The position numbers and the translations under genes were made by a program. This document shows positions 1,843 through 11,308 of a stretch of DNA of 11,308 bases, in pieces. Positions within the stretch are counted from its first letter, which is position 1. Each line of letters opens with the position of its first letter. Source of the stretch: Prevotellaceae bacterium. Its GTDB lineage: Bacteria > Bacteroidota > Bacteroidia > Bacteroidales > UBA932. The DNA is taken from assembly GCA_031278135.1 (NCBI GenBank), contig JAITKY010000132.1, positions 1 through 11,308 on the forward strand, written 5' to 3'. A model generated the notes under the pieces. The model ran no database searches. It was not told the DNA's origin and saw only the letters and a program-made list of their open reading frames with translations.

Positions 1843-2202
1843 ATGGCAAATAATGATTTTAGTAAAACAACAGAACAACGCAAAGAAAACTTGCGGAAAA
1901 TTTTAACTCCGATTATTGCCACCGTAGTTACAATGATTGGATGTGCGATTATAGTAGGGACATTAATAATAATCGTGAGTGATTATTATGATAGGCAGAA
2001 AGGTCTATTCTATTTTTTATTAGTTTGCTCGGCAGTTGTTTTCAGTATTATATTTTTATTAATTTCCGCCATTTTGCTGATACGGAAAATTGATTTGGAT
2101 AATACGGGAAAATATAGAACTGTTGTCCATTACTTGTACATAGCTATTTTTATCCTTTGTATAATCGGACTGTTTGCAGTGATTTTATCTTCTATTAATT
2201 AG
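1843..2202 (+). CDS. Small hypothetical membrane protein, three membrane segments
   Basis: This 119-aa protein has a charged N-terminal tail of about 20 residues (MANNDFSKTTEQRKENLRK) and three hydrophobic segments at about 22-47, 54-80 and 94-116. A basic RKIDLDNTGKYR loop separates the last two. I recognise no family. The tail probably lies in the cytoplasm by the positive-inside rule. The stop is 13 bp before the ATPase gene, so co-transcription is likely and it may be a membrane partner of the ATPase, which has no membrane segment of its own. The first seven residues (MANNDFS) and their DNA nearly match the start of the VWA gene (MAKNDFS). Confidence 0.75.
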   Translation: MANNDFSKTTEQRKENLRKILTPIIATVVTMIGCAIIVGTLIIIVSDYYDRQKGLFYFLLVCSAVVFSIIFLLISAILLIRKIDLDNTGKYRTVVHYLYIAIFILCIIGLFAVILSSIN

Positions 2203-2215
2203 TGGTATCTTTAAT

Positions 2216-4972
2216 ATGAGCAAGTTATTAACAGAAATAGAGCATTTCAGGCAGAGAGCCACCATTTGTTTACAGGACAGGTTTAAGGGCGCATTCAATC
2301 AGATTGCACGAGAGAATGGTAATTACGAAAAATTTATTGCCGGCGTTGATGCTTTTGCCGCAATGGGAGATTTGAACAAATTGACGGATATAAAAAGTTC
2401 TGCCGGTACAACCATTCCGCCTTATCTGAATTATGGACATTTGATTGCTTATACCAGAGGCGGGCATCCGATGGAAAACATACATATTCCCTTGCTTTTG
2501 CCCTGTACGGATAACAACGCCGTTTTGTTCGAAATTGAAGACGCAAAACCGGTGGACATCTCCGTTTTCTTTCAGATTGTAGCATTGCGTTATTTGCTGT
2601 CCATGAAGATGAAGGTTTGCAAATTTTATATGATAGATTCCAATTTTGGCAACAGTTTCGCTTTTTTTGCGAATATCAACAATAGCCAACTCCAAAAGGA
2701 ATTGATTTACAAATCGGAAGATATAAATAAACTGATGACGGATTTGGCAAAGACCGTCAGTCAGGCTAATCAGAGTTATTTGGGCAGTTTCCCCAGTCTG
2801 ACTGCCTACAACGAACAGGCAGGCATAATGGCTCAACCCTATCATTTTGTATTTATATCCGATTTTCCGAACGGTTTTTCCGGTAGCGCACTGGACAATT
2901 TATATAATCTGATAAACAATAACAATGCCAACAAGGCAGGAATTCAGATTTTCATCAATTACAATAAAAGCAGCTATCTGCCACGCGATTTCGATATAAA
3001 TAAATACAGGAATATCTGTTCATGTATTTCTACGCGGAGCGGTAGCGGAGAAACGAGTATCCGAAACTGGAATATCAACATTCCAATACCAAAATACAGG
3101 ATGATTATTGATACGGCGCTTCCTGCCAATGCCAACAAATTAGTCGCTTTTATCAATCAGATACAGGAAGAAAAGGTGACATTTACTTTGGATAACTGGA
3201 TTGAAGAACTGAAACAAAACAAAAAAGTATGGAGCGAAACGACCGTAGACGGCGTCAATGTTCCAATCGGATACACTTCGCCGACACAAACATTCAATTT
3301 TTATCTGGCAAACGACAATGACAGCAGTTGCAACGACTATTTCTCATTAGTAACCGGAAGACCGGGTTATGGGAAAACCGTATTTTTAGACAATATTATT
3401 GTTAATGCCTGTTTCAAATATTCTCCCGAAGAATTGAATCTTTATTTGGCAGATTTCAAAAACGGCATTAGTTTCAGCAAATACAGAGGTTTGCCACATG
3501 TCAAGGCTCTGATGCTTGCAAATAACCGTGAATATGCTTTACGAATACTAAACTATATTTTGGACGAAACCGAACGACGGGGAAAACTGTACAAAAAAGC
3601 AGAAATGCAATCAGGACAAGTGATCGATAAATTATCGGTATATCGAAAAATCACCAGAGACCCAATGCCTCGTATTTTACTAATCATGGATGAGTTTCAA
3701 AATCTATACCAGTCGGTTGATATGGTATCTGTTAACGCCAGAACAAAGTTGGTTAAGGGTATCAGGGAATGGCGAGCGTTTGGTATCAGCGTAATATTGT
3801 GTACTCAAACTTTGTCCGGCGTGAATTTCGGCGAAGCAAATGATTTAATAACATATCGTTTCGCTCTTAATTCGTTAGAGATGGACAGTAAAGCCGTATT
3901 ACGCAACAATGCCGCAAAATTTTTGACCCGCAAGGGACAAATGATTATGAACAACACCGCCGACGGCAACGAGCAGATGAACATTGAGTTTCAATGCGCA
4001 TTTACACCCCATTACCTTAAACATGTCAAATATCTGGCACAAACTTATCAGCAGCAGCATCATGGCGCATTGCCTGTAAAATATATCTGCGAATCGGGTA
4101 CGGGCGCAAATATTGCAGACAATAAGGAATTATCACAACAGTTTATACATGACAATTTTGCGATCAATCACCAGTATTGCGACGTCTTTATCGGCAAACC
4201 CGACCTCTTGCGCAATTCTCATACGCGTATCCGGTATCGTCGTCAGCAAAATTCCAATACACTGATAATCGGCGAAGATTTTGCAACCGCTATCAATACC
4301 ATAGCCATCAGTTTGGTGCAGTTATATAAACAAAGTTCGCCCGACAGCAAGTTCTATGTGATTGACTGTTTCAATGTTGGCGATGAATATCAGGGAGCGT
4401 TAAACGGGATAACCTCCTGTTCTACGGATTTCGTTACAGGTAATTCTCAATCGGTCGTTACTCAGATAGACAGCATCGCAACCGAGTTGGAAAAACGAAA
4501 ACAGACGGCTGCACAGGGACAATTTACAAAAGAACGGCTTGTGTTGGCGGTTTTGAATACGCAGAACTGTTACGAACTCAAGCCTCAACAATCGGGCATG
4601 ATACCCATGCCTTCGGCTACGGCGACTAAACTTGTGAAAATTCTCAACGAGGGACCGCCTTTGGGGATTCACTGTATCATTCATTCGCTGAATTATACTT
4701 CACTTTTCGGAACAGGAGCAATATTTCAGTCGTCGGTATTTAATCACTTTGAAAATAAAATATTTCTGAAAGGCGCCGATATTCAAAACATATTGCTTGG
4801 CGGTATTAAGTTGAGCGCCGTAGATGAAAACGGGCAAATGATAGCGTTGAATGCAAAGTTGGACAAGGAAGATTATGAGCAATGCAACGCTTATTCCGAG
4901 ATAACCGGAAACGGAAATAATACGACCATTGATTTTATTTCACAACTATTTAAACAAAACAGCTATGCATAA
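2216..4972 (+). CDS. FtsK/SpoIIIE-type ATPase, three ATPase-like regions with only the middle one intact
   Basis: This 918-aa protein contains a full FtsK/SpoIIIE-type P-loop domain at about residues 350-610. It has Walker A GRPGYGKT (381-388), the family strand LYLADFKNG (409-417), Walker B ILLIMDEFQ (487-495, D492/E493) and a sensor-like ILCTQTLSG (527-535). The region at about 90-300 looks like a decayed copy (KFYMIDSNFG at 137-146, HFVFISDFPNG at 210-220, no P-loop). The region at about 655-900 looks like another (LIIGEDFATA at 683-692 in the P-loop position, KFYVIDCFNVGD, LVLAVLNTQN, GIHCIIHSLN). Serial FtsK-like domains of mixed activity are characteristic of the EssC/EccC motor of type VII secretion. 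Chromosome-partitioning FtsK instead has an N-terminal membrane domain and a gamma domain, both absent here. No membrane segment is seen, so it probably docks on a membrane partner. Its stop overlaps the next start by 8 bp. The ATPase call is sure; the transport role is inferred. Confidence 0.9.
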   Translation: MSKLLTEIEHFRQRATICLQDRFKGAFNQIARENGNYEKFIAGVDAFAAMGDLNKLTDIKSSAGTTIPPYLNYGHLIAYTRGGHPMENIHIPLLLPCTDNNAVLFEIEDAKPVDISVFFQIVALRYLLSMKMKVCKFYMIDSNFGNSFAFFANINNSQLQKELIYKSEDINKLMTDLAKTVSQANQSYLGSFPSLTAYNEQAGIMAQPYHFVFISDFPNGFSGSALDNLYNLINNNNANKAGIQIFINYNKSSYLPRDFDINKYRNICSCISTRSGSGETSIRNWNINIPIPKYRMIIDTALPANANKLVAFINQIQEEKVTFTLDNWIEELKQNKKVWSETTVDGVNVPIGYTSPTQTFNFYLANDNDSSCNDYFSLVTGRPGYGKTVFLDNIIVNACFKYSPEELNLYLADFKNGISFSKYRGLPHVKALMLANNREYALRILNYILDETERRGKLYKKAEMQSGQVIDKLSVYRKITRDPMPRILLIMDEFQNLYQSVDMVSVNARTKLVKGIREWRAFGISVILCTQTLSGVNFGEANDLITYRFALNSLEMDSKAVLRNNAAKFLTRKGQMIMNNTADGNEQMNIEFQCAFTPHYLKHVKYLAQTYQQQHHGALPVKYICESGTGANIADNKELSQQFIHDNFAINHQYCDVFIGKPDLLRNSHTRIRYRRQQNSNTLIIGEDFATAINTIAISLVQLYKQSSPDSKFYVIDCFNVGDEYQGALNGITSCSTDFVTGNSQSVVTQIDSIATELEKRKQTAAQGQFTKERLVLAVLNTQNCYELKPQQSGMIPMPSATATKLVKILNEGPPLGIHCIIHSLNYTSLFGTGAIFQSSVFNHFENKIFLKGADIQNILLGGIKLSAVDENGQMIALNAKLDKEDYEQCNAYSEITGNGNNTTIDFISQLFKQNSYA

Positions 4973-6305
4973 TATTATTAACGAAAATACGAAAATCTTC
5001 TCCTCGATCATGCAATCGGTTCAGACATTGCACGAAACAGAGATATTCATCGAAGATGAAACGAAAATGTTCAGAACGTTTATGGATTTTTTGACAAAAA
5101 ATGCAGATGAAATCGGCAAATTTCATGCGGTAGAAGAAGAGATGGTCGATTATCTCAGGCAATATTCTTTTAACGGTAAAGCCGATTTTTCATCCGTAAA
5201 GGACAAACTGCAACCGTTGACCGGCATCAAGCAACTTTTGGCAACAATGGGCAGCGCCGCCAAAGAGTTAGTCGGTTATCCCAACCGGTATGGTTGTCAT
5301 AAAAAGATAGAAGAATGTAAAACTCTGACAGATTTTTGTATTAATCGCATGAAAAGCGTTAATTACGACAAAACTGTTACCGAGTTGAAAGTCTACATCA
5401 GTGATTTGAAAGACATTAAAAAGGAATTGGAAACGGATGCCAAAATTCTTGCCGACATTAAAAATATCATAAACAGCAATAATGCGCTATTGAATAAATA
5501 TACCGCTTTCAAAACAGAAACAGAGCAATTTGTTTCCGGTTTCCCGAATGACCGCGACAATGATTTGGCAACCATAAAACAATGGATTCACACTTTAAGC
5601 GAAGTGGATAAACTGCTTGATAAGGTTGGCGCAATTTCTACTCAAATACAGCATTATGCAAACAGATATCAAAAAGATGCCGTATGGAAACAAGCCGATC
5701 AAATAATTTCATTTGCTCATACACAAATGAAACGCTGTGACATGAGCAAAACAAAAAGCGACTTGCAAAACATTATTCCCAAACTCAATCAGGTAATCAG
5801 CGATTTTGACAAAGAATACGATACGATTGTACAATTAATCGGTAAATTGAAACAACGTACCCCCGACCATTGGGAAGAAGACAATGAAAATTTGATTTAC
5901 GAATTGTCGGCAATAATTAAAAATGACACAAGAAAACAGAATTTTGTTTTGCAGGATTTTTACACACGCGAACAGGATGCTTGTGATAAAAAGAAACATG
6001 ATATTTCCGGTTTTGAGCGGCAACATGCCGATTTGATGAAACGGTATGCAAACAGGCTATACTCTGCAATCAGGGACAAGTATGTCAGTTATTCCTGTTT
6101 CCAACAATGGATTACCGATATATTGGAAGAAGAACGAAAACGGATTAACAGATTGCGCTGGAAAATCGCAAAAATTGTCGGTGCAACATTAGGAATAGGG
6201 AGCGTCGTTGGCGTACTTATTTGGGTGTTCGTAGCATATACAGTTTGGGCTATTGTAATAACTGTAATATTAATTATAATCGCATTTCTAACTTTTAGAG
6301 AATGA
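4965..6305 (+). CDS. Helical repeat protein with C-terminal membrane anchor
   Basis: I chose the ATG at 4965 (446 aa). It overlaps the ATPase stop in ATGCATAA, whereas the upstream TTG at 4929 would add 12 unsupported residues. Residues 1-400 are almost entirely predicted alpha-helix, rich in K, E, D, N and Q. An internal duplication is visible: YPNRYGCHKKIEECKTLTDF at 105-124 followed by NRMK...ELK matches YANRYQKDAVWKQADQIISF at 231-250 followed by TQMK...LQ. A third, weaker RYANRLYS occurs at 360-367. Two hydrophobic segments at about 402-424 and 426-443 end the protein, leaving only FREstop, so it is a tail-anchored or hairpin-anchored protein with a large cytoplasmic helical part. Position between ATPase and small helical proteins, with overlapping start and stop codons on both sides, points to one complex. 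No family recognised. Confidence 0.85.
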   Translation: MHNIINENTKIFSSIMQSVQTLHETEIFIEDETKMFRTFMDFLTKNADEIGKFHAVEEEMVDYLRQYSFNGKADFSSVKDKLQPLTGIKQLLATMGSAAKELVGYPNRYGCHKKIEECKTLTDFCINRMKSVNYDKTVTELKVYISDLKDIKKELETDAKILADIKNIINSNNALLNKYTAFKTETEQFVSGFPNDRDNDLATIKQWIHTLSEVDKLLDKVGAISTQIQHYANRYQKDAVWKQADQIISFAHTQMKRCDMSKTKSDLQNIIPKLNQVISDFDKEYDTIVQLIGKLKQRTPDHWEEDNENLIYELSAIIKNDTRKQNFVLQDFYTREQDACDKKKHDISGFERQHADLMKRYANRLYSAIRDKYVSYSCFQQWITDILEEERKRINRLRWKIAKIVGATLGIGSVVGVLIWVFVAYTVWAIVITVILIIIAFLTFRE

Positions 6306-6886
6306 AAAAGAAAAACTTTGACATATTAAACAGTAACGAATACAAGCGGGGTTTTGAGGAAGGAAAAGCAGCCGCCGAAAAAGGAAAGGATAAAAACTAT
6401 CTGGGTATGATTTCGCTGAAATCGTTTATCTGGGGCAATGCTTCTATGGATACTTACACGCAGGGTTATAACGAAGGTTATGCTTTTGCTTTAAAACAGA
6501 AATCGCTGGTCTCGGAGATAACAGACGCTGTAACCACCACAACCCGAAACAGTAATAACAGAAATAACAATTTTAATAATAATTTAAATACCACGAATAT
6601 GGCAGAAATGAATTTAGAAGTCCAGAAACAAAAAATGCTGGAAATGAGAAGTTTCTTGGGAGACTTCAGTACGCTCCTGAATAGCAGGATGCAGGGTTTA
6701 TCCGACAAGTTGAATGAATATGTTGTACAAGGTTTTCCTTCGGACATTGCGGCGCATTACGGTCAAATGTATTATGCGACGGAAAAGCAGGAAATCGACG
6801 CTTTGATACAGACAATTCAGACAGCGCACTACGAGTATATAGATAACGTAGTAGCCGATATACAGGCAGCTATAGACAGACAATAG
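6302..6886 (+). CDS. Two-part small protein: Gly/Glu motif repeat domain plus two-helix domain
   Basis: The start overlaps the previous stop in ATGA, which suggests translational coupling. The 194-aa product has three parts. Residues 1-70 contain two copies of a Y-x2-G-[FY]-x-E-G-x-A-x-A motif (YKRGFEEGKAAAEK at 14-27, YTQGYNEGYAFALK at 52-65). Residues 79-99 are a Thr/Asn-rich linker (TTTRNSNNRNNNFNNNLN). Residues 100-194 form a helix-hairpin-helix-like domain with QGFPSDI at 143-149 in the turn. That last domain starts with an internal Met (ATG at 6599) and is paralogous to the whole of the next gene (MAEMNLEV versus MAEMILEV). A shorter product from Met100 is therefore possible. The domain's size and hairpin form resemble WXG100 proteins, but there is no W-x-G. 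No signal peptide or membrane segment. Confidence 0.85.
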   Translation: MKKKNFDILNSNEYKRGFEEGKAAAEKGKDKNYLGMISLKSFIWGNASMDTYTQGYNEGYAFALKQKSLVSEITDAVTTTTRNSNNRNNNFNNNLNTTNMAEMNLEVQKQKMLEMRSFLGDFSTLLNSRMQGLSDKLNEYVVQGFPSDIAAHYGQMYYATEKQEIDALIQTIQTAHYEYIDNVVADIQAAIDRQ

Positions 6887-6913
6887 TTTTTAAACAATTA
6901 AAAAAAATAGATT

Positions 6914-7198
6914 ATGGCAGAAATGATATTGGAGGTTCAAATCCAAAAATTAGAAGAAATGAAGAGCTTTTTAGGCGAGTTCTGTATGTTGATGAACGAT
7001 CAGATGGAAGAGTTACGCAATAATTTGCATAACTACAGAGCGCAGGGATTTCCTACGGAAATTTCCGACAAATACGAAGAAAGGCATTATGCTCCGGCGC
7101 GTTCGACCGTCGAGCAAATGATCACACGTATCCACACACTTCATTACAATTATATTGATGGCGTGATTGAGGATTTAACAAGAGCGATAAACAGATAA
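6914..7198 (+). CDS. Small two-helix protein (94 aa), paralogue of the preceding C-terminal domain
   Basis: The product matches residues 100-194 of the preceding protein without gaps; I counted about 44 identities in 94 positions by hand. The most conserved stretches are the N-terminus MAEM-LEVQ-QK, EM-SFLG, the central QGFP[ST][DE]I, and HY-YID near the end. Prediction by eye is two long amphipathic helices joined at QGFPTEI. Length (~95 aa), hairpin shape, pairing with a paralogue and proximity to an EssC-like ATPase all resemble WXG100/ESAT-6 pairs of type VII secretion. The W-x-G motif is absent and no C-terminal YxxxD/E export motif is obvious, though YIDGVIED is present near the end. 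It could equally be a structural subunit. The A-rich stretch before the ATG is typical of Bacteroidota starts. Confidence 0.82.
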   Translation: MAEMILEVQIQKLEEMKSFLGEFCMLMNDQMEELRNNLHNYRAQGFPTEISDKYEERHYAPARSTVEQMITRIHTLHYNYIDGVIEDLTRAINR

Positions 7199-7229
7199 TT
7201 TTATGTATAATTGAAAAAGTATTAAAAAA

Positions 7230-7922
7230 ATGGCAAAAAATGATTTTTCGGCAGAAGCCGCAGTAAATTTTGAGCAGAAATGCTTGTGTGTATTAGTCCT
7301 TGATGTTTCAGGCTCTATGTTTGGGACGCCTATTAAGGAATTGAACGAGGGATTGGCTGATTTCTATAATGAAATTACAAACGATGAAAGTACAAGCCAA
7401 AAACTGGAAGTCTCGGTGATTACATTCAACCACATTGTAAAAACAGTGGTTGAACCTTCGCTGGTAGAAAATTTCACCCTGCCGAAATTGTCGGCTGACG
7501 GCTCCACGGCTATGGTCAAGGCAGTGAACGAAGCGATAGACAAGGTCGAAGCTCGTAAAACATGGTACAAACAGACCAATCAAAACTATTATCGTCCATG
7601 GATTATCCTTATAACAGATGGAGAACCCGACGATGACCAGAATGTAGACGCCCTGTCTCGCCGCGTCAAAAATGACATGGCAAACAAAAAGTATGTCTTT
7701 CTCCCTATTGGCGTCGAAAATGCGAATATGGGAATCTTAGACCAAATTGCAGGAACGGTAAACGACAAGAAAATGGGTCCACTGAAATTAAAAGGGACTA
7801 ATTTCAAGTCGTTTTTCCAATGGCTGAGCGCAAGCATGGGAACGGTTGTCAATACCGAAGAAGGGCAAACGGTCAATTTAAGTGGCGGTGATACAACATG
7901 GATGGATTCTTTTGTTATTTGA
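7230..7922 (+). CDS. VWA-domain protein, TerY-like
   Basis: The 230-aa protein is essentially a single von Willebrand factor A domain. The MIDAS metal site is complete: DVSGS (D25, S27, S29), GST (T93) and ILITDGEPDD (D130). The length and the LDVSGSM-ITDGEP pattern fit TerY-type cytoplasmic VWA proteins. There is no signal peptide or membrane segment. In the TerY-P triad known from comparative genomics, such a protein accompanies a PP2C phosphatase and a Ser/Thr kinase, as it does here. The VWA protein is thought to act as a metal-dependent scaffold or adaptor, possibly a phosphorylation target. A C-terminal stretch after 205 (TEEGQTVNLSGGDTTWMDSF) may be flexible. It is the last gene before a strong terminator. 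tery-like naming is by domain and context only, so I give no symbol. Confidence 0.92.
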   Translation: MAKNDFSAEAAVNFEQKCLCVLVLDVSGSMFGTPIKELNEGLADFYNEITNDESTSQKLEVSVITFNHIVKTVVEPSLVENFTLPKLSADGSTAMVKAVNEAIDKVEARKTWYKQTNQNYYRPWIILITDGEPDDDQNVDALSRRVKNDMANKKYVFLPIGVENANMGILDQIAGTVNDKKMGPLKLKGTNFKSFFQWLSASMGTVVNTEEGQTVNLSGGDTTWMDSFVI

Positions 7923-7932
7923 AATGGAAGTT

Positions 7933-7973
7933 ACCGCATATTGGTTGTTTTTCGACCGGTATGCGGTTTTTTT
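7933..7973 (+). terminator. Rho-independent terminator after the VWA gene
   Basis: The stem ACCGCATATTGGT (7933-7945) pairs with ACCGGTATGCGGT (7955-7967), 13 bp including two G-U pairs. It has a 9-base loop, and a run of seven T follows (7967-7973). It starts 11 bp after the VWA stop. The next gene's ATG is only about 23 bp beyond the T-run, so transcription of the phosphatase and kinase genes either reads through or restarts in a very short space. I see no promoter there. Confidence 0.88.
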
Positions 7974-7995
7974 AACTTATTAAAAAAGATTGTAA

Positions 7996-9759
7996 ATGAA
8001 AAGAATTTTATGTGTATTAATATTCTTTTGTTCCTGTCTGTCCACATTCGGACAGGTTACAGAGGAAAAACTGTTGTCCATATTTGGCAAAATACGGGCA
8101 GATATGGTCAAAGAAGCTTGTAAAACAGCCAAATTTAACGATTCGGCTGTTGTAAATAAAATTGAAATAAAGAGTCTGAAAAATTTTCTTGATACAGTTA
8201 AGAAAAAGGACCAACAGTTGTATGATATTATTAATAAAGCTAATCGTCTATTATTCGGCACAGATATATACGATTATAAGCACAAAATGTCATTATTTGC
8301 GGATACTTTGTTTTTTAAATTGAGCTTAACATATCCGGACAAAGAGCAGGATATCACAAAAATGAAATTACTCTATACAGCTGAAATTCAAAAAGCATTA
8401 GCAGAGGCACAAAAACTGGCACAACAACAATATAGAGAAAACATGCAGGCAATAACCCTTGAATATCAGAAAGCGTTGGACTCAATTGAAAAATTGAACA
8501 TGGATAATATACAAAAAAAACAAGAATTAGATAAATTAAAGACCGAGTACGAACAAAAACGGGACGAAGAGAAGAACAGGTATCTTAAACTGCAAGGACA
8601 AATTGGACCACAGAAAACCAATTATACTGTATTAATAACTGTCTTCGCAGTCGCCGTTGCAGTTTCAATCGTGATATTGTTTATTATCGCAAGAAAAAGG
8701 AAGTTTATTCAAAAAAAACATTCATCGATGGTTGTATCTACTCTCAATGAAAATGCAGAACAGACAATTCACACTAATCCTTTGGCAAGTAAACCGGTAA
8801 AAACGCCTGCAAATAATTCTCCATTATCAGAACATCCAAAACCCGAAACTCCAAAACAACCGGTAAAAACGCCTGTAACAAACGACATGGCAACTTTTGC
8901 AATTGATGCAGACGAATGGATTGTAGTCGGCGCATCTGTTACCGGAAACGGACATGTGAGATCTAATCTACCTTGTCAGGATAGCAACAAATATGAATAT
9001 TGGGGTGACGGATGGGGTATTGCTATTGTGTCGGATGGAGCAGGATCGGCGCAAAATTCGCATATCGGGTCCAAATTAGTAACACATCGCGGAATTGTGC
9101 ATTTCAAAGCGCTCGTCGAACGGGAAAAATGGATACAAAACAATGAATTACCCAAAGACATCGATTGGTTTCGACATTCTTATTCCACACTCAAACTAAT
9201 CAGGAACGATATGGAACAGTTCGCCAATAAAGAGAATTATCCTCTAAAATCGCTTAATGCTACGGCCATTGTGCTTATCCACAGTCCGTATGGAATTTTG
9301 GCCGCTCATGTAGGCGATGGCAGAGCCGGATATAAAAACGAAAAGGGTGAATGGAAAGCATTGATAACTCCACACAAGGGTGAAGAAGCCAACCAAACCA
9401 TTTTTCTGCCGTCCGAATTTTGGAGCATACCCAATTACATGATGTCGGGCGTATTAGTTCCCGAAAGTATGGTCGTCAGGGAAAAACCGTTTGCCTTTAC
9501 ATTAATGAGCGACGGTTGTGAAAATACGGCATGGCAATATTATCAGATGGATACTAATACTGGACATTACTATGATCCGAATAAACCGCATCTGCCGTTT
9601 TTTAATCCGCTCGAAGAGACATTACAGTCTTTCAGAAACGATAATGTTGATTTGGAAGAACGAAAGCAACGGTGGAAAAGTTTTATCGAATCCGGTAGCC
9701 GGTCGTTTATAAAAGAACAGGATGATAAAACAATGATATTAGGAGTATTATATCTTTAA
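7996..9759 (+). CDS. Membrane-spanning PP2C-type Ser/Thr protein phosphatase
   Basis: This 587-aa protein has an N-terminal signal sequence (MKRILCVLIFFCSCLSTFGQ, likely cut before or near Q20). A helical, coiled-coil-rich region at about 120-205 follows (repeated E/K/Q, for example EIQKALAEAQKLAQQQ). A membrane segment lies at about 210-232, followed by RKRK, so the first part is periplasmic and the rest cytoplasmic. A Pro-rich linker (about 260-297) repeats PVKTP. Residues 305-587 are a PP2C domain of the PP2C_2 type. Metal-site motifs are GNGHVRSNLPCQDS (D329), VSDGAGS (D347), ATAIVLI (422-428), AHVGDGRAG (437-445), LMSDGCEN (503-510) and DDKTMI (576-581). The catalytic set appears complete. 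It should dephosphorylate Ser/Thr proteins, plausibly the targets of the adjacent kinase. The outer coiled coil could sense envelope state. It lies 10 bp before the kinase start. Confidence 0.93.
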   Translation: MKRILCVLIFFCSCLSTFGQVTEEKLLSIFGKIRADMVKEACKTAKFNDSAVVNKIEIKSLKNFLDTVKKKDQQLYDIINKANRLLFGTDIYDYKHKMSLFADTLFFKLSLTYPDKEQDITKMKLLYTAEIQKALAEAQKLAQQQYRENMQAITLEYQKALDSIEKLNMDNIQKKQELDKLKTEYEQKRDEEKNRYLKLQGQIGPQKTNYTVLITVFAVAVAVSIVILFIIARKRKFIQKKHSSMVVSTLNENAEQTIHTNPLASKPVKTPANNSPLSEHPKPETPKQPVKTPVTNDMATFAIDADEWIVVGASVTGNGHVRSNLPCQDSNKYEYWGDGWGIAIVSDGAGSAQNSHIGSKLVTHRGIVHFKALVEREKWIQNNELPKDIDWFRHSYSTLKLIRNDMEQFANKENYPLKSLNATAIVLIHSPYGILAAHVGDGRAGYKNEKGEWKALITPHKGEEANQTIFLPSEFWSIPNYMMSGVLVPESMVVREKPFAFTLMSDGCENTAWQYYQMDTNTGHYYDPNKPHLPFFNPLEETLQSFRNDNVDLEERKQRWKSFIESGSRSFIKEQDDKTMILGVLYL

Positions 9760-9769
9760 TTGACAGAAA

Positions 9770-11173
9770 ATGGGATACGAGGTATTAAATTCAAATGGCG
9801 AGAAAATAATTCTTGACGACAAAGCATTTTCATCGGGAGGCGAAGGAGAGGTTCGTCGTGTTGTGTCGCCGGCATGTTATAAAAATCATTGTGTGAAAAT
9901 ATACTACAAACAGAAACGAACACAAATGCAAGCCGACAAAATACAGTTTATGGTAGATAATCCGCCGGCGAAAATTCAAACCGACAGATTTATGATAGGG
10001 TGGCCTATTCAAACTATTTATCATCTCAACAGGGAATTTGTCGGTTTCATGATGCCGCTGGCTTTTTCCGGCAGTATAACATTAATCTATTTAACATCGT
10101 TGCATTTGAGTAAGAAATTGAATGCCGATTGGCAAAAATATTCAAGGTACAATGGTCGAGATGGATTGGTCGCCCGATTTAAATTGATGAATAATATTGC
10201 TATTCCCGTTTTTTTGCTGCACAATACGGGAAAATATGTATTGAAAGATTTTAAGCCGGAAAATGTGTTAGTTACTCATTCCGGCGAAATAACTATTGTG
10301 GATATGGATTCCATACAAATAACCAATGGTCAGAAAGTACTTTTTCCGGGTACGGCTGCAACACAGGATTATATACCACCGGAATTTTACAACGGAATCG
10401 CAGGTAGAACCGCAGGCGTTCCATTAGAAAGGTCATGGGATAATTTCGCATTAAGCGTGGTGTTTTACAAATTGTTGTTCGGACTTCATCCCTATGCCGT
10501 AACTCCTAAAAATCAAAAAGACGATAGCAGTAGCGATATATCGGATAATATTTCAGACGATTTATTCCCATTTGGCAATAATACGCATAAAATAGCAGGA
10601 TTCCCTCCTCCACACGACAAATTTCATATTTTGCCGGAGCCTCTGCAAAATTTCTTTAAACGCGCTTTCTCGTTAAATGCTGTAGATCGTCCAAATGCCG
10701 ATGAATGGGGAAAATTGTTACATGATATCGTCAAAAATGCAGAGAAACTGAAACCGTCGAAGCCGTCGAAGCCGTCGAAACCGTCGAAACCGTCGAAACC
10801 GTCGACGCCGTCGGAGCCGTCGAAACCGTCGAAGCCGTCGAACCCGCCTAAGCCGCCTAAGCCGCCTAAGCCGTCGAAGCCGCCGAAACCGCCGAAATCG
10901 AAATCGCTTGTGAAACGAGTCCTTTTAAGTATTGTCGGGATTGTCGGGATACTCTTTATTATAAGCAGACTATTTGCGCCGCCGAGTGAAGAACAGTTAA
11001 AGGATTTTGAAAAGTATAAAAATGCTGCCATCACAAATTATAACTTTGCAAAAAAAAATGGAGACAAATTTGCCTATAAAGAGTTTCTGAAAAATTGCAA
11101 TAAGGCTTTATCTATCAAAAAGGATGATGAACTGAAAAGGATGAAAAAAGAAATTGACAAAGAAACAAAGTAA
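9770..11173 (+). CDS. Ser/Thr-type protein kinase with KPS-rich linker, membrane segment and exported tail
   Basis: Of 467 aa, residues about 15-322 are a protein kinase domain. It has a Gly-rich loop SGGEGEV (22-28), a likely ATP-binding Lys K43 (CVKIYY), catalytic loop LKDFKPENVL (D160, K162, N165), metal-binding IVDMDS (D178), RSWDNFALSV (D224) and DRP (306-308). The HRD is LKD and the DFG is DMD. The 'D-x-DS-x-Q' form is one I associate with YegI/TerY-P-type kinases and does not itself indicate inactivity. Residues 328-375 are sixteen three-residue units, mostly KPS or KPP. A membrane segment lies at about 383-402, followed by a ~65-aa helical tail (EKYKNAAITNYNFAKKNGDK) resembling a TPR-like unit outside the membrane. 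The stop overlaps the next start by one base (TAATG). It probably opposes the phosphatase encoded just upstream. Confidence 0.92.
   Translation: MGYEVLNSNGEKIILDDKAFSSGGEGEVRRVVSPACYKNHCVKIYYKQKRTQMQADKIQFMVDNPPAKIQTDRFMIGWPIQTIYHLNREFVGFMMPLAFSGSITLIYLTSLHLSKKLNADWQKYSRYNGRDGLVARFKLMNNIAIPVFLLHNTGKYVLKDFKPENVLVTHSGEITIVDMDSIQITNGQKVLFPGTAATQDYIPPEFYNGIAGRTAGVPLERSWDNFALSVVFYKLLFGLHPYAVTPKNQKDDSSSDISDNISDDLFPFGNNTHKIAGFPPPHDKFHILPEPLQNFFKRAFSLNAVDRPNADEWGKLLHDIVKNAEKLKPSKPSKPSKPSKPSKPSTPSEPSKPSKPSNPPKPPKPPKPSKPPKPPKSKSLVKRVLLSIVGIVGILFIISRLFAPPSEEQLKDFEKYKNAAITNYNFAKKNGDKFAYKEFLKNCNKALSIKKDDELKRMKKEIDKETK
10751..10900 (+). repeat. 9-bp tandem repeat encoding a KP[S/P] tract
   Basis: About sixteen near-perfect 9-bp units (AARCCGTCG, later AAGCCGCCT/AAGCCGCCG) encode KPS then KPP triplets between the kinase domain and the membrane segment. 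Single-base variants give TPS, EPS and NPP. Such an array is prone to slippage, and changes in units of 9 bp would keep the frame. On the opposite strand it creates a spurious Gly/Asp/Phe-rich ORF. Confidence 0.93.
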
Positions 11174-11308
11174 TGAAAAAGAGTTTACAGATATTAATTT
11201 TCGCGTTGATGTTTTCCAGCGTTTACGGGCAGGACAGTCAGGGTTGTTACAATTATTACCGCAGCAAAGGCGTTGCCGCCTACAATGAAAGCAAGTACGA
11301 AGAAGCAA
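11173..11308 (+). CDS. Exported protein, 5' end only (TPR-like)
   Basis: The ATG overlaps the kinase stop by one base. The 45 visible residues begin with a signal peptide (MKKSLQILIFALMFSSVYGQ), followed by GCYNYYRSKGVAAYNESKYE, which resembles the start of a tetratricopeptide repeat (A-Y-x-x-x-K-Y-E-E-A). The gene runs off the right edge, so length and domain content are unknown. Tight coupling to the kinase, and the kinase's own TPR-like outer tail, suggest a periplasmic or cell-surface partner of the kinase/phosphatase pair. Confidence 0.72.
   Translation, partial: MKKSLQILIFALMFSSVYGQDSQGCYNYYRSKGVAAYNESKYEEA

Follow-up and report, generated by a model that had tools for sequence, protein, structure and literature searches.

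The window analysed here is one whole contig of 11,308 nucleotides (JAITKY010000132.1; contig C28 of genome G000) from the 2.05-Mb, 74% complete assembly of a Prevotellaceae bacterium. It carries an operon which can be read, with somewhat better than even confidence, as a stand-alone protein-handling machine that resembles the type VII secretion system (T7SS), is of the solo or mobile kind and brings along a membrane-embedded phospho-switch of the TerY-P type; the host is probably diderm. Membership in the class of solo T7-like systems is very likely. Eight genes follow each other on the + strand: a small protein with three transmembrane (TM) helices, an ATPase, a tail-anchored helical protein, two hairpin proteins, a VWA protein, a PP2C-type phosphatase and a Ser/Thr kinase. 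A ninth reading frame (11173..11308, + strand), of which the first 45 amino acids with a signal-peptide-like start are present, is cut by the contig end. The intergenic spacings from the gene at 1843 onward are 13, -8, -4, 27, 31, 73, 10 and -1 bases, and genes overlap at ATGCATAA (4965-4972), ATGA (6302-6305) and TAATG (11171-11175). An earlier note on this DNA had described the same gene order and the same start/stop overlaps, and both were confirmed. Pfam named four of the nine window proteins scanned above cut-off (FtsK_SpoIIIE, VWA, PP2C_2 and protein kinase), and NCBIfam named none of them above its cut-offs.

The gene set is rare among the genomes searched, yet it occurs together in all three contigs which contain the coiled, tail-anchored protein. 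Searches for the ATPase covered 393 genomes of the order at a threshold of 1e-3 and, at E <= 1e-16, 395 genomes of the phylum, three of the family of G264 and 199 of the window's own family. At 1e-3, matches were obtained in 359 of the 393 genomes, the listed rows being nearly all weak and covering the middle domain only; at the strict threshold the matches fell to 3/395, 1/3 and 5/199, with the own genome counted in the first and the last of these. The coiled protein was detected in two of 398 family genomes, own genome included. Locus L050 (genome G846), from another genus within the family, keeps the order of the window, with a three-TM protein (29% identical amino acids), the ATPase (63%), the coiled protein (4052-5266; 42%), four hairpin proteins, two VWA proteins (71% and 65%), the PP2C protein (46%) and the kinase (56%); the gaps are 30 bases between VWA and PP2C and 26 bases between PP2C and kinase. 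A contig from another family (L040, genome G264) holds the end of the ATPase, the coiled protein (23%), a 186-amino-acid and two hairpin proteins of about 97 amino acids, VWA (57%) and PP2C (33%), and then ends. The hairpin proteins thereby number two in the window, three in L040 and four in L050. A more distant ATPase (L051, genome G839, 32% identical) is preceded by an FHA protein, and no hairpin or triad was found in the 1.3 kb left of that contig. Because the ordered set recurs in L050 and, between contig ends, in L040, the arrangement goes beyond chance. The conserved co-occurrence which the earlier note had asked for was found for the whole set in L050 and as far as the contig reaches in L040.

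The ATPase (2216..4972, + strand, 918 amino acids) comprises an N-terminal part (residues 1 to about 335), an active middle domain and a degenerate C-terminal ATPase domain. The middle domain matches PF01580 (4.6e-20) and carries a Walker A motif (GRPGYGKT at residue 381) and a Walker B-like motif (LLIMDE at 488). The EccC/EssC-type ATPase with tandem FtsK-like domains by which a T7SS is recognised is present, the EssC and EccC models being the best ones though far under their cut-offs (NCBIfam bit scores EssC 98.6, EccCa 90, FtsK 28.8). The ranking EssC, EccCa, EccCb and, far lower, FtsK was the same for the ATPases of L050 and L051, and the PDB chains nearest to the window protein were headed by YukB and EccC. 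In profile comparisons, the C-terminal 280 or so residues matched domain 2 of EssC/EccC at 93.7% with three close sequences (FtsK 2.2%) and at 97.4% with a wider set (FtsK 80.3%). The protein had been proposed as a triple ATPase; of this, the middle domain is certain and the degenerate third one is supported by the profile comparison, whereas the N-terminal third reached at most 12%. A single Walker A motif was found in all 15 T7-like ATPases compared (the controls EssC, EssC and EccC have 2, 2 and 3), which separates the class from classical T7SS only, because FtsK rows also have one. The ATPase has no TM helix by hydropathy and so lacks a feature of the classical T7SS ATPases; across 16 loci, the window included, the ATPase lacks TM helices in 14 (one of them the L040 fragment), and L041 and L042 have one segment each.

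In a tree of the active ATPase domain (47 rows), the window protein belongs to a T7-like set of 15 rows (95/94), which consists of ATPases that are mostly WXG100-linked and includes Caballeronia, Helicobacter, two Rhodococcus and Deinococcus plasmid relatives. Three rows of domain 1 of classical EssC/EccC stand separate (99/95), and 24 FtsK rows plus Blautia L003 form an FtsK-type set (100/100) apart from the window ATPase. All 23 weak-match loci that were opened (L010-L032) group with FtsK. The T7-like clade was placed closer to FtsK than to EssC domain 1 with support that is not firm (86/72), and no branching order of the three sets is claimed here, since the bootstrap is unsettled and long branches are present. 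Clustering with DNA-translocating FtsK proteins, which would have spoken against the earlier note, was not observed. Bit scores, tree and domain-2 match agree with the EssC/EccC-like assignment made there, and as judged from its sequence the protein is not a housekeeping FtsK.

The 94-amino-acid protein (6914..7198, + strand) was predicted by AlphaFold2 (predicted local distance difference test, pLDDT, 93.8) as a two-helix hairpin, and this model has the helical hairpin of about 100 residues that is typical of the WXG100 superfamily. Its top 17 PDB rows in Foldseek were all type VII WXG100 or Lap proteins or HP0062 of H. pylori (PMC3397514, in the part of the text accessible). A hairpin profile matched the WXG100-type proteins beside family ATPases at 83%, and a coiled control at 0.4%. 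Model, PDB matches and profile match together point to the WXG100 fold that had been suggested. The loop carries QGFP at residues 44-47 in place of WxG. A second W-less hairpin (6599-6883), 47% identical to the first, forms the last 95 or so residues of the 194-amino-acid protein (6302..6886, + strand), behind an N-terminal Gly/Tyr-repeat domain. The two genes had been taken for WXG100-sized paralogues; one of the two hairpins is the tail of a larger protein with an extra domain. This two-domain layout also occurs in L040 and L054; in the latter (6095-10238, G405:C5) a broken T7-like ATPase adjoins a 204-amino-acid protein built like the 194-amino-acid one. Among seven proteins encoded beside other family ATPases, that of L034 and one of L041 pass PF06013, that of L044 passes WXG100_2, and that of L039 lies just under the cut-off. 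W-less hairpin relatives outside an ATPase operon were found at L085 (16515-16796) and L106 (8570-8884), one near a Ter-type operon and one among lipoprotein-like genes. The hairpins constitute a family that Pfam does not detect, and such cassettes may therefore be under-counted.

VWA, PP2C and Ser/Thr kinase genes in a row, as in TerY-P systems, follow the hairpin genes. The TerY-like VWA protein (7230..7922, + strand) keeps the motifs of a metal ion-dependent adhesion site (MIDAS; DVSGS, GST and TDGEP), the PP2C protein (7996..9759, + strand, 587 amino acids) its Asp-Gly motifs, and the kinase (9770..11173, + strand, 467 amino acids) the glycine loop, DFKPEN and DMD; we presume that these motifs have their usual meaning. 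According to hydropathy, the PP2C protein begins like a signal peptide, continues with a helical part on the extracytoplasmic side and has a single TM segment (about 207-238) ahead of the PP2C domain. The kinase has one TM segment (about 378-406) followed by a tail of about 60 residues; another hydrophobic stretch, a weak one, falls within the kinase domain (90-108). A linker of Lys-Pro-Ser/Lys-Pro-Pro repeats (window 10750-10900) takes the place of a zinc-ribbon-like Cx3H...CxxC stretch in the L050 kinase; the C-terminus of the window kinase lacks a zinc ribbon, with one Cys after residue 300 (an OB fold was looked for by Pfam scan only). Pfam, topology and motifs thus bear out the TerY-P-like triad of the earlier note, although the PADLOC match of the VWA protein to TerY is weak (4.5e-4). 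The likeness to the type VI threonine phosphorylation pathway, drawn in the same note, is an analogy only, and no operon protein matched FHA in Pfam. An FHA gene or fusion was found at the ATPase in L051 and L052, and FHA or kinase genes adjoin other family ATPases. In L052 (G829:C18), an FHA-fused T7-like ATPase, a WXG100-type gene, an FHA-CD225 protein and a kinase fused to an FGE-sulfatase domain make up another phospho-linked layout.

The VWA profile matched 12 of the 393 genomes of the order at 1e-15, own genome included, and the neighbourhoods of all these matches except G255 and G352 were read. The next-closest VWA relatives belong to different gene sets, in G135 (VWA, PP2C, kinase), G227 (kinase and VWA, with a second VWA at the end of another contig) and G263 (kinase, VWA, PP2C), in each case without this ATPase in the stretches read. 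Those of G133, G303, G392, G239 and G036 have the appearance of Ter-type operons, with neighbours that are presumably TerD-like. The own genome also has a Ter-type operon with two VWA genes (L090 on G000:C273). Because VWA relatives sit in other gene sets without the ATPase, the triad is a reusable regulatory module that was recruited here. Neighbours that vary around an isolated triad, named beforehand as a point against a functional unit, do occur in part (G135, G227, G263), but the three contigs with coiled and hairpin proteins all carry ATPase, VWA and PP2C.

The first gene product (1843..2202, + strand, 119 amino acids) is predicted to have three TM helices. The coiled protein behind the ATPase (4965..6305, + strand) ends in a hydrophobic stretch (about 400-446) and is a candidate membrane tether for the ATPase. 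A membrane-anchored helical protein had been expected at this place, and its length is corrected to 446 amino acids from the ATG at 4965. The L040 orthologue has a TM tail as well, and a gene ending in a TM stretch adjoins the ATPase in six of 16 loci (window, L040, L043, L044, L036 and L037; for L036 a reading frame longer than the annotated gene was used). Two otherwise unrelated proteins of the operon have near-identical starts, namely MANNDFS in the three-TM protein (1843-1863) and MAKNDFS in the VWA protein (7230-7250). In the own assembly, the MAxNDFS-type DNA pattern was found at these two genes and nowhere else, and a reversed control gave none. In L050, both small TM proteins start with MAxNDFL and both VWA proteins start likewise; the VWA protein of L040 starts with MGKNDFS and those of G227 with MATNDFY. 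It is our guess that the MAxNDF peptide serves as a docking tag.

The exact combination had not been recognised as a described system. That it is undescribed is not supported, since WXG proteins, FtsK/EssC-like ATPases and TerY-P are already in print in the accessible texts of PMC3482391, PMC4978471 and PMC11090510. Zhang et al. 2012 (PMC3482391) list 'mobile versions of T7SS' with a solo WXG protein and a three-domain YueA-like ATPase active in the middle domain only, Bacteroidetes included. The operon shares with this class the WXG-type partner, the one active ATPase domain in the middle and the absence of other T7SS genes. Of the three-domain layout, the window ATPase shows the single central Walker A and the degenerate third domain, and its N-terminal third gave the low profile match stated above. 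The operon differs in the triad, as the available part of that paper names no kinase or phosphatase, in the W-less hairpins and in its candidate membrane tethers. The type III-A CoCoNuT of 2024 (PMC11090510, accessible part) combines TerY-P with a pair of WXG100-fold proteins, of which one has no WxG, and with an EssC-like ATPase that has a long N-terminal coiled coil, a single active domain and no TM helices. The likeness extends to ATPase, both hairpins, VWA, PP2C and kinase, whereas phosphatase and kinase of the window are membrane-bound and there is a single VWA gene, against two in L050. In H. pylori, an island that unites TerY-P, WxG and FtsK (PMC4978471, 2016) also contains, according to the text available, a helicase, an LHH nuclease and ParA/McrBC-like genes. 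The T7SSb of Bacillota (EssC, EsxA, Lap) resembles the operon in ATPase domain types 1 and 2, tandem small hairpins and Lap-like fold matches, but the window ATPase lacks TM helices and FHA. In relation to TerY-P and similar triads, for which the available text of PMC11090510 gives a zinc ribbon at the kinase as a feature, the ribbon-like stretch of the L050 kinase is a further likeness; differences are the KPS-repeat linker of the window kinase, a PP2C protein which likewise spans the membrane, and an EssC-like ATPase as partner. The fusion of a triad kinase to TM helices is not novel as such, because PMC7159879 (in its accessible part) reports it for GAP1-N2 GTPase systems of actinobacteria. 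In the literature searched, with subscription papers and preprints mostly beyond reach, no account was seen of W-less hairpins that are combined with an EssC-like ATPase and a TerY-P of the transmembrane kind. To the extent of these searches, the W-less hairpins, a TM PP2C and kinase in such an operon, the separate tether for an ATPase without TM helices and the shared MAxNDF start are new. WXG100/EssC-like cassettes outside Gram-positives have been listed since 2012, and no tested function was found for them in that literature.

Control of the machine by phosphorylation through the triad is fairly likely, and export across the inner membrane is modestly favoured. The machine most likely works as follows. 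The soluble EssC-like ATPase, presumably a hexamer, would be anchored to the inner membrane through the tail-anchored helical protein, perhaps with help from the three-TM protein; the genes of ATPase and helical protein overlap by 8 bases. The 94-amino-acid hairpin and the tail of the 194-amino-acid protein may bind one another or a substrate, which they would hand over to the ATPase. The one active ATPase domain would drive unfolding or export, and the degenerate C-terminal domain would, by analogy with EccC, likely be hairpin-binding or regulatory. The extracytoplasmic part of the PP2C protein may read the envelope; PP2C and TM kinase would then control the phosphorylation state of VWA, hairpins or ATPase, and the machine would work only when a signal arrives. 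A more specific model can be offered only tentatively. In it, the operon would encode a phospho-gated exporter at a Gram-negative inner membrane that is fed by two to four W-less hairpin paralogues, and MAxNDF would dock the VWA and the small membrane protein to one partner. As to the substrate, the Helicobacter plasmid locus L035 (9158-13560) carries a WXG100-type gene, a predicted HNH-type nuclease, SMI1/KNR4, a small gene and a T7-like ATPase; the nuclease and SMI1/KNR4 between WXG100-type gene and ATPase suggest that ATPases of this class have a toxin as substrate. A puzzle named in print is the means by which an EssC-type motor that lacks membrane helices might bring about export; the operon offers a testable answer, with the membrane parts as separate proteins and with start and stop perhaps set by phosphorylation.

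Several observations weigh against a type VII-like exporter. The operon proteins matched no EssA, EssB, EsaA, EsaB, EccB-E, YukD or toxin models in Pfam and NCBIfam, and the structure prediction of the ATPase is of low confidence (pLDDT 29.8). The two window hairpins contain no Trp, hence no WxG at the turn, and lack the C-terminal HxxxD/ExxhxxxH pattern; neither these nor three scanned hairpins of L050 and L040 match WXG100 in Pfam. The Foldseek E-values of the 94-amino-acid hairpin are insignificant alone (best 0.24), unrelated helical hairpins score nearly equally in VIA-align, and the match was weak (15%) when the hairpin profile was compared a second time, against three WXG100-type proteins. 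One hairpin relative sits on an 11-kb contig of G845 that lacks the ATPase, and another is found next to a Ter-type operon in G133. In L050, the coiled orthologue has no C-terminal TM stretch, and the kinase terminates at its TM stretch without a tail. The authors of PMC11090510 state, in the text accessible, that EssC homologues without TM helices need a different mechanism. This also favours an intracellular conflict or stress module. In such a module the ATPase would act on complexes of the cytoplasm, remodelling or assembling them, with hairpins for adaptors and TerY-P for the switch and without export, as may hold for CoCoNuT-linked versions. Described TerY-P relatives lie in defence-type islands (accessible parts of PMC4978471 and PMC11090510), the kinase matches PADLOC defence kinases with modest scores, and the Caballeronia plasmid locus L034 has VWA, WXG100, ATPase, a CARF protein, VWA, PP2C, kinase and an AAA-domain protein in a single run. 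However, the nine window proteins gave no match above cut-off to a nuclease (CARF-nuclease and coiled-coil nuclease included), CARF, helicase, McrBC, CnuB/CnuC or HEPN on the contig up to 11308, which ends soon after the kinase, so that more genes could follow, and the three-TM protein, the tail-anchored protein and the TM phosphatase and kinase make the operon rich in membrane parts. We regard such a module as possible but doubtful.

That the ATPase pumps DNA like FtsK, TraB or HerA is most unlikely. The Pfam name FtsK_SpoIIIE, FtsK chains of the PDB that match the middle domain and the loosely supported position of the clade near FtsK would fit such a pump, but EssC, EccC and YukB lead among the curated models and the PDB chains, the degenerate second ATPase domain is of the domain-2 type, hairpin genes adjoin, and the operon proteins matched neither relaxase nor integrase models in Pfam or NCBIfam. 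It is also improbable that two functionally separate units, ATPase-hairpin-VWA and PP2C-kinase, merely lie side by side, although a terminator-like hairpin of 15 pairs followed by a T-run (7933-7967, + strand) separates VWA and PP2C, and triad parts occur in other gene sets. A 15-pair terminator-like hairpin lies at the same place in L040 (3927-3959), with stems that look unrelated to those of the window, so that two of the three orthologous operons have such a site before PP2C, which also counts against one machine with its own switch. In L050, VWA, PP2C and kinase have the same order, and the 30 bases between VWA and PP2C contain no terminator-like site; the order VWA-PP2C is kept in L040, too. 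PP2C and kinase may form a second transcript because of the hairpin at 7933-7967, and the expression of machine and switch may be set apart, since the site precedes PP2C in both the window and L040. The L040 site raises the likelihood of two transcripts and leaves the odds of functional independence as before. The type VII-like machine with its own phospho-switch is the reading preferred here.

Some further features were observed outside the operon. A T7-like ATPase set on a Rhodococcus plasmid (L036, 8256-15126) adjoins genes annotated as Hsp70, TPR and GrpE. Upstream of the operon, a 215-amino-acid protein (837-1484) has hydrophobic stretches at its N- and C-terminus and matched no family above cut-off in Pfam and NCBIfam. 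A tandem 23-base repeat with the core CAAAGACCATTTGGTC lies at 341-455, after the first gene fragment. A 113-base direct repeat was detected upstream of the operon at 571-807, 1555-1667 and 1703-1815, with copies that are 73-100% alike and span short open frames; elsewhere in the own assembly it has a single weak copy on C164.

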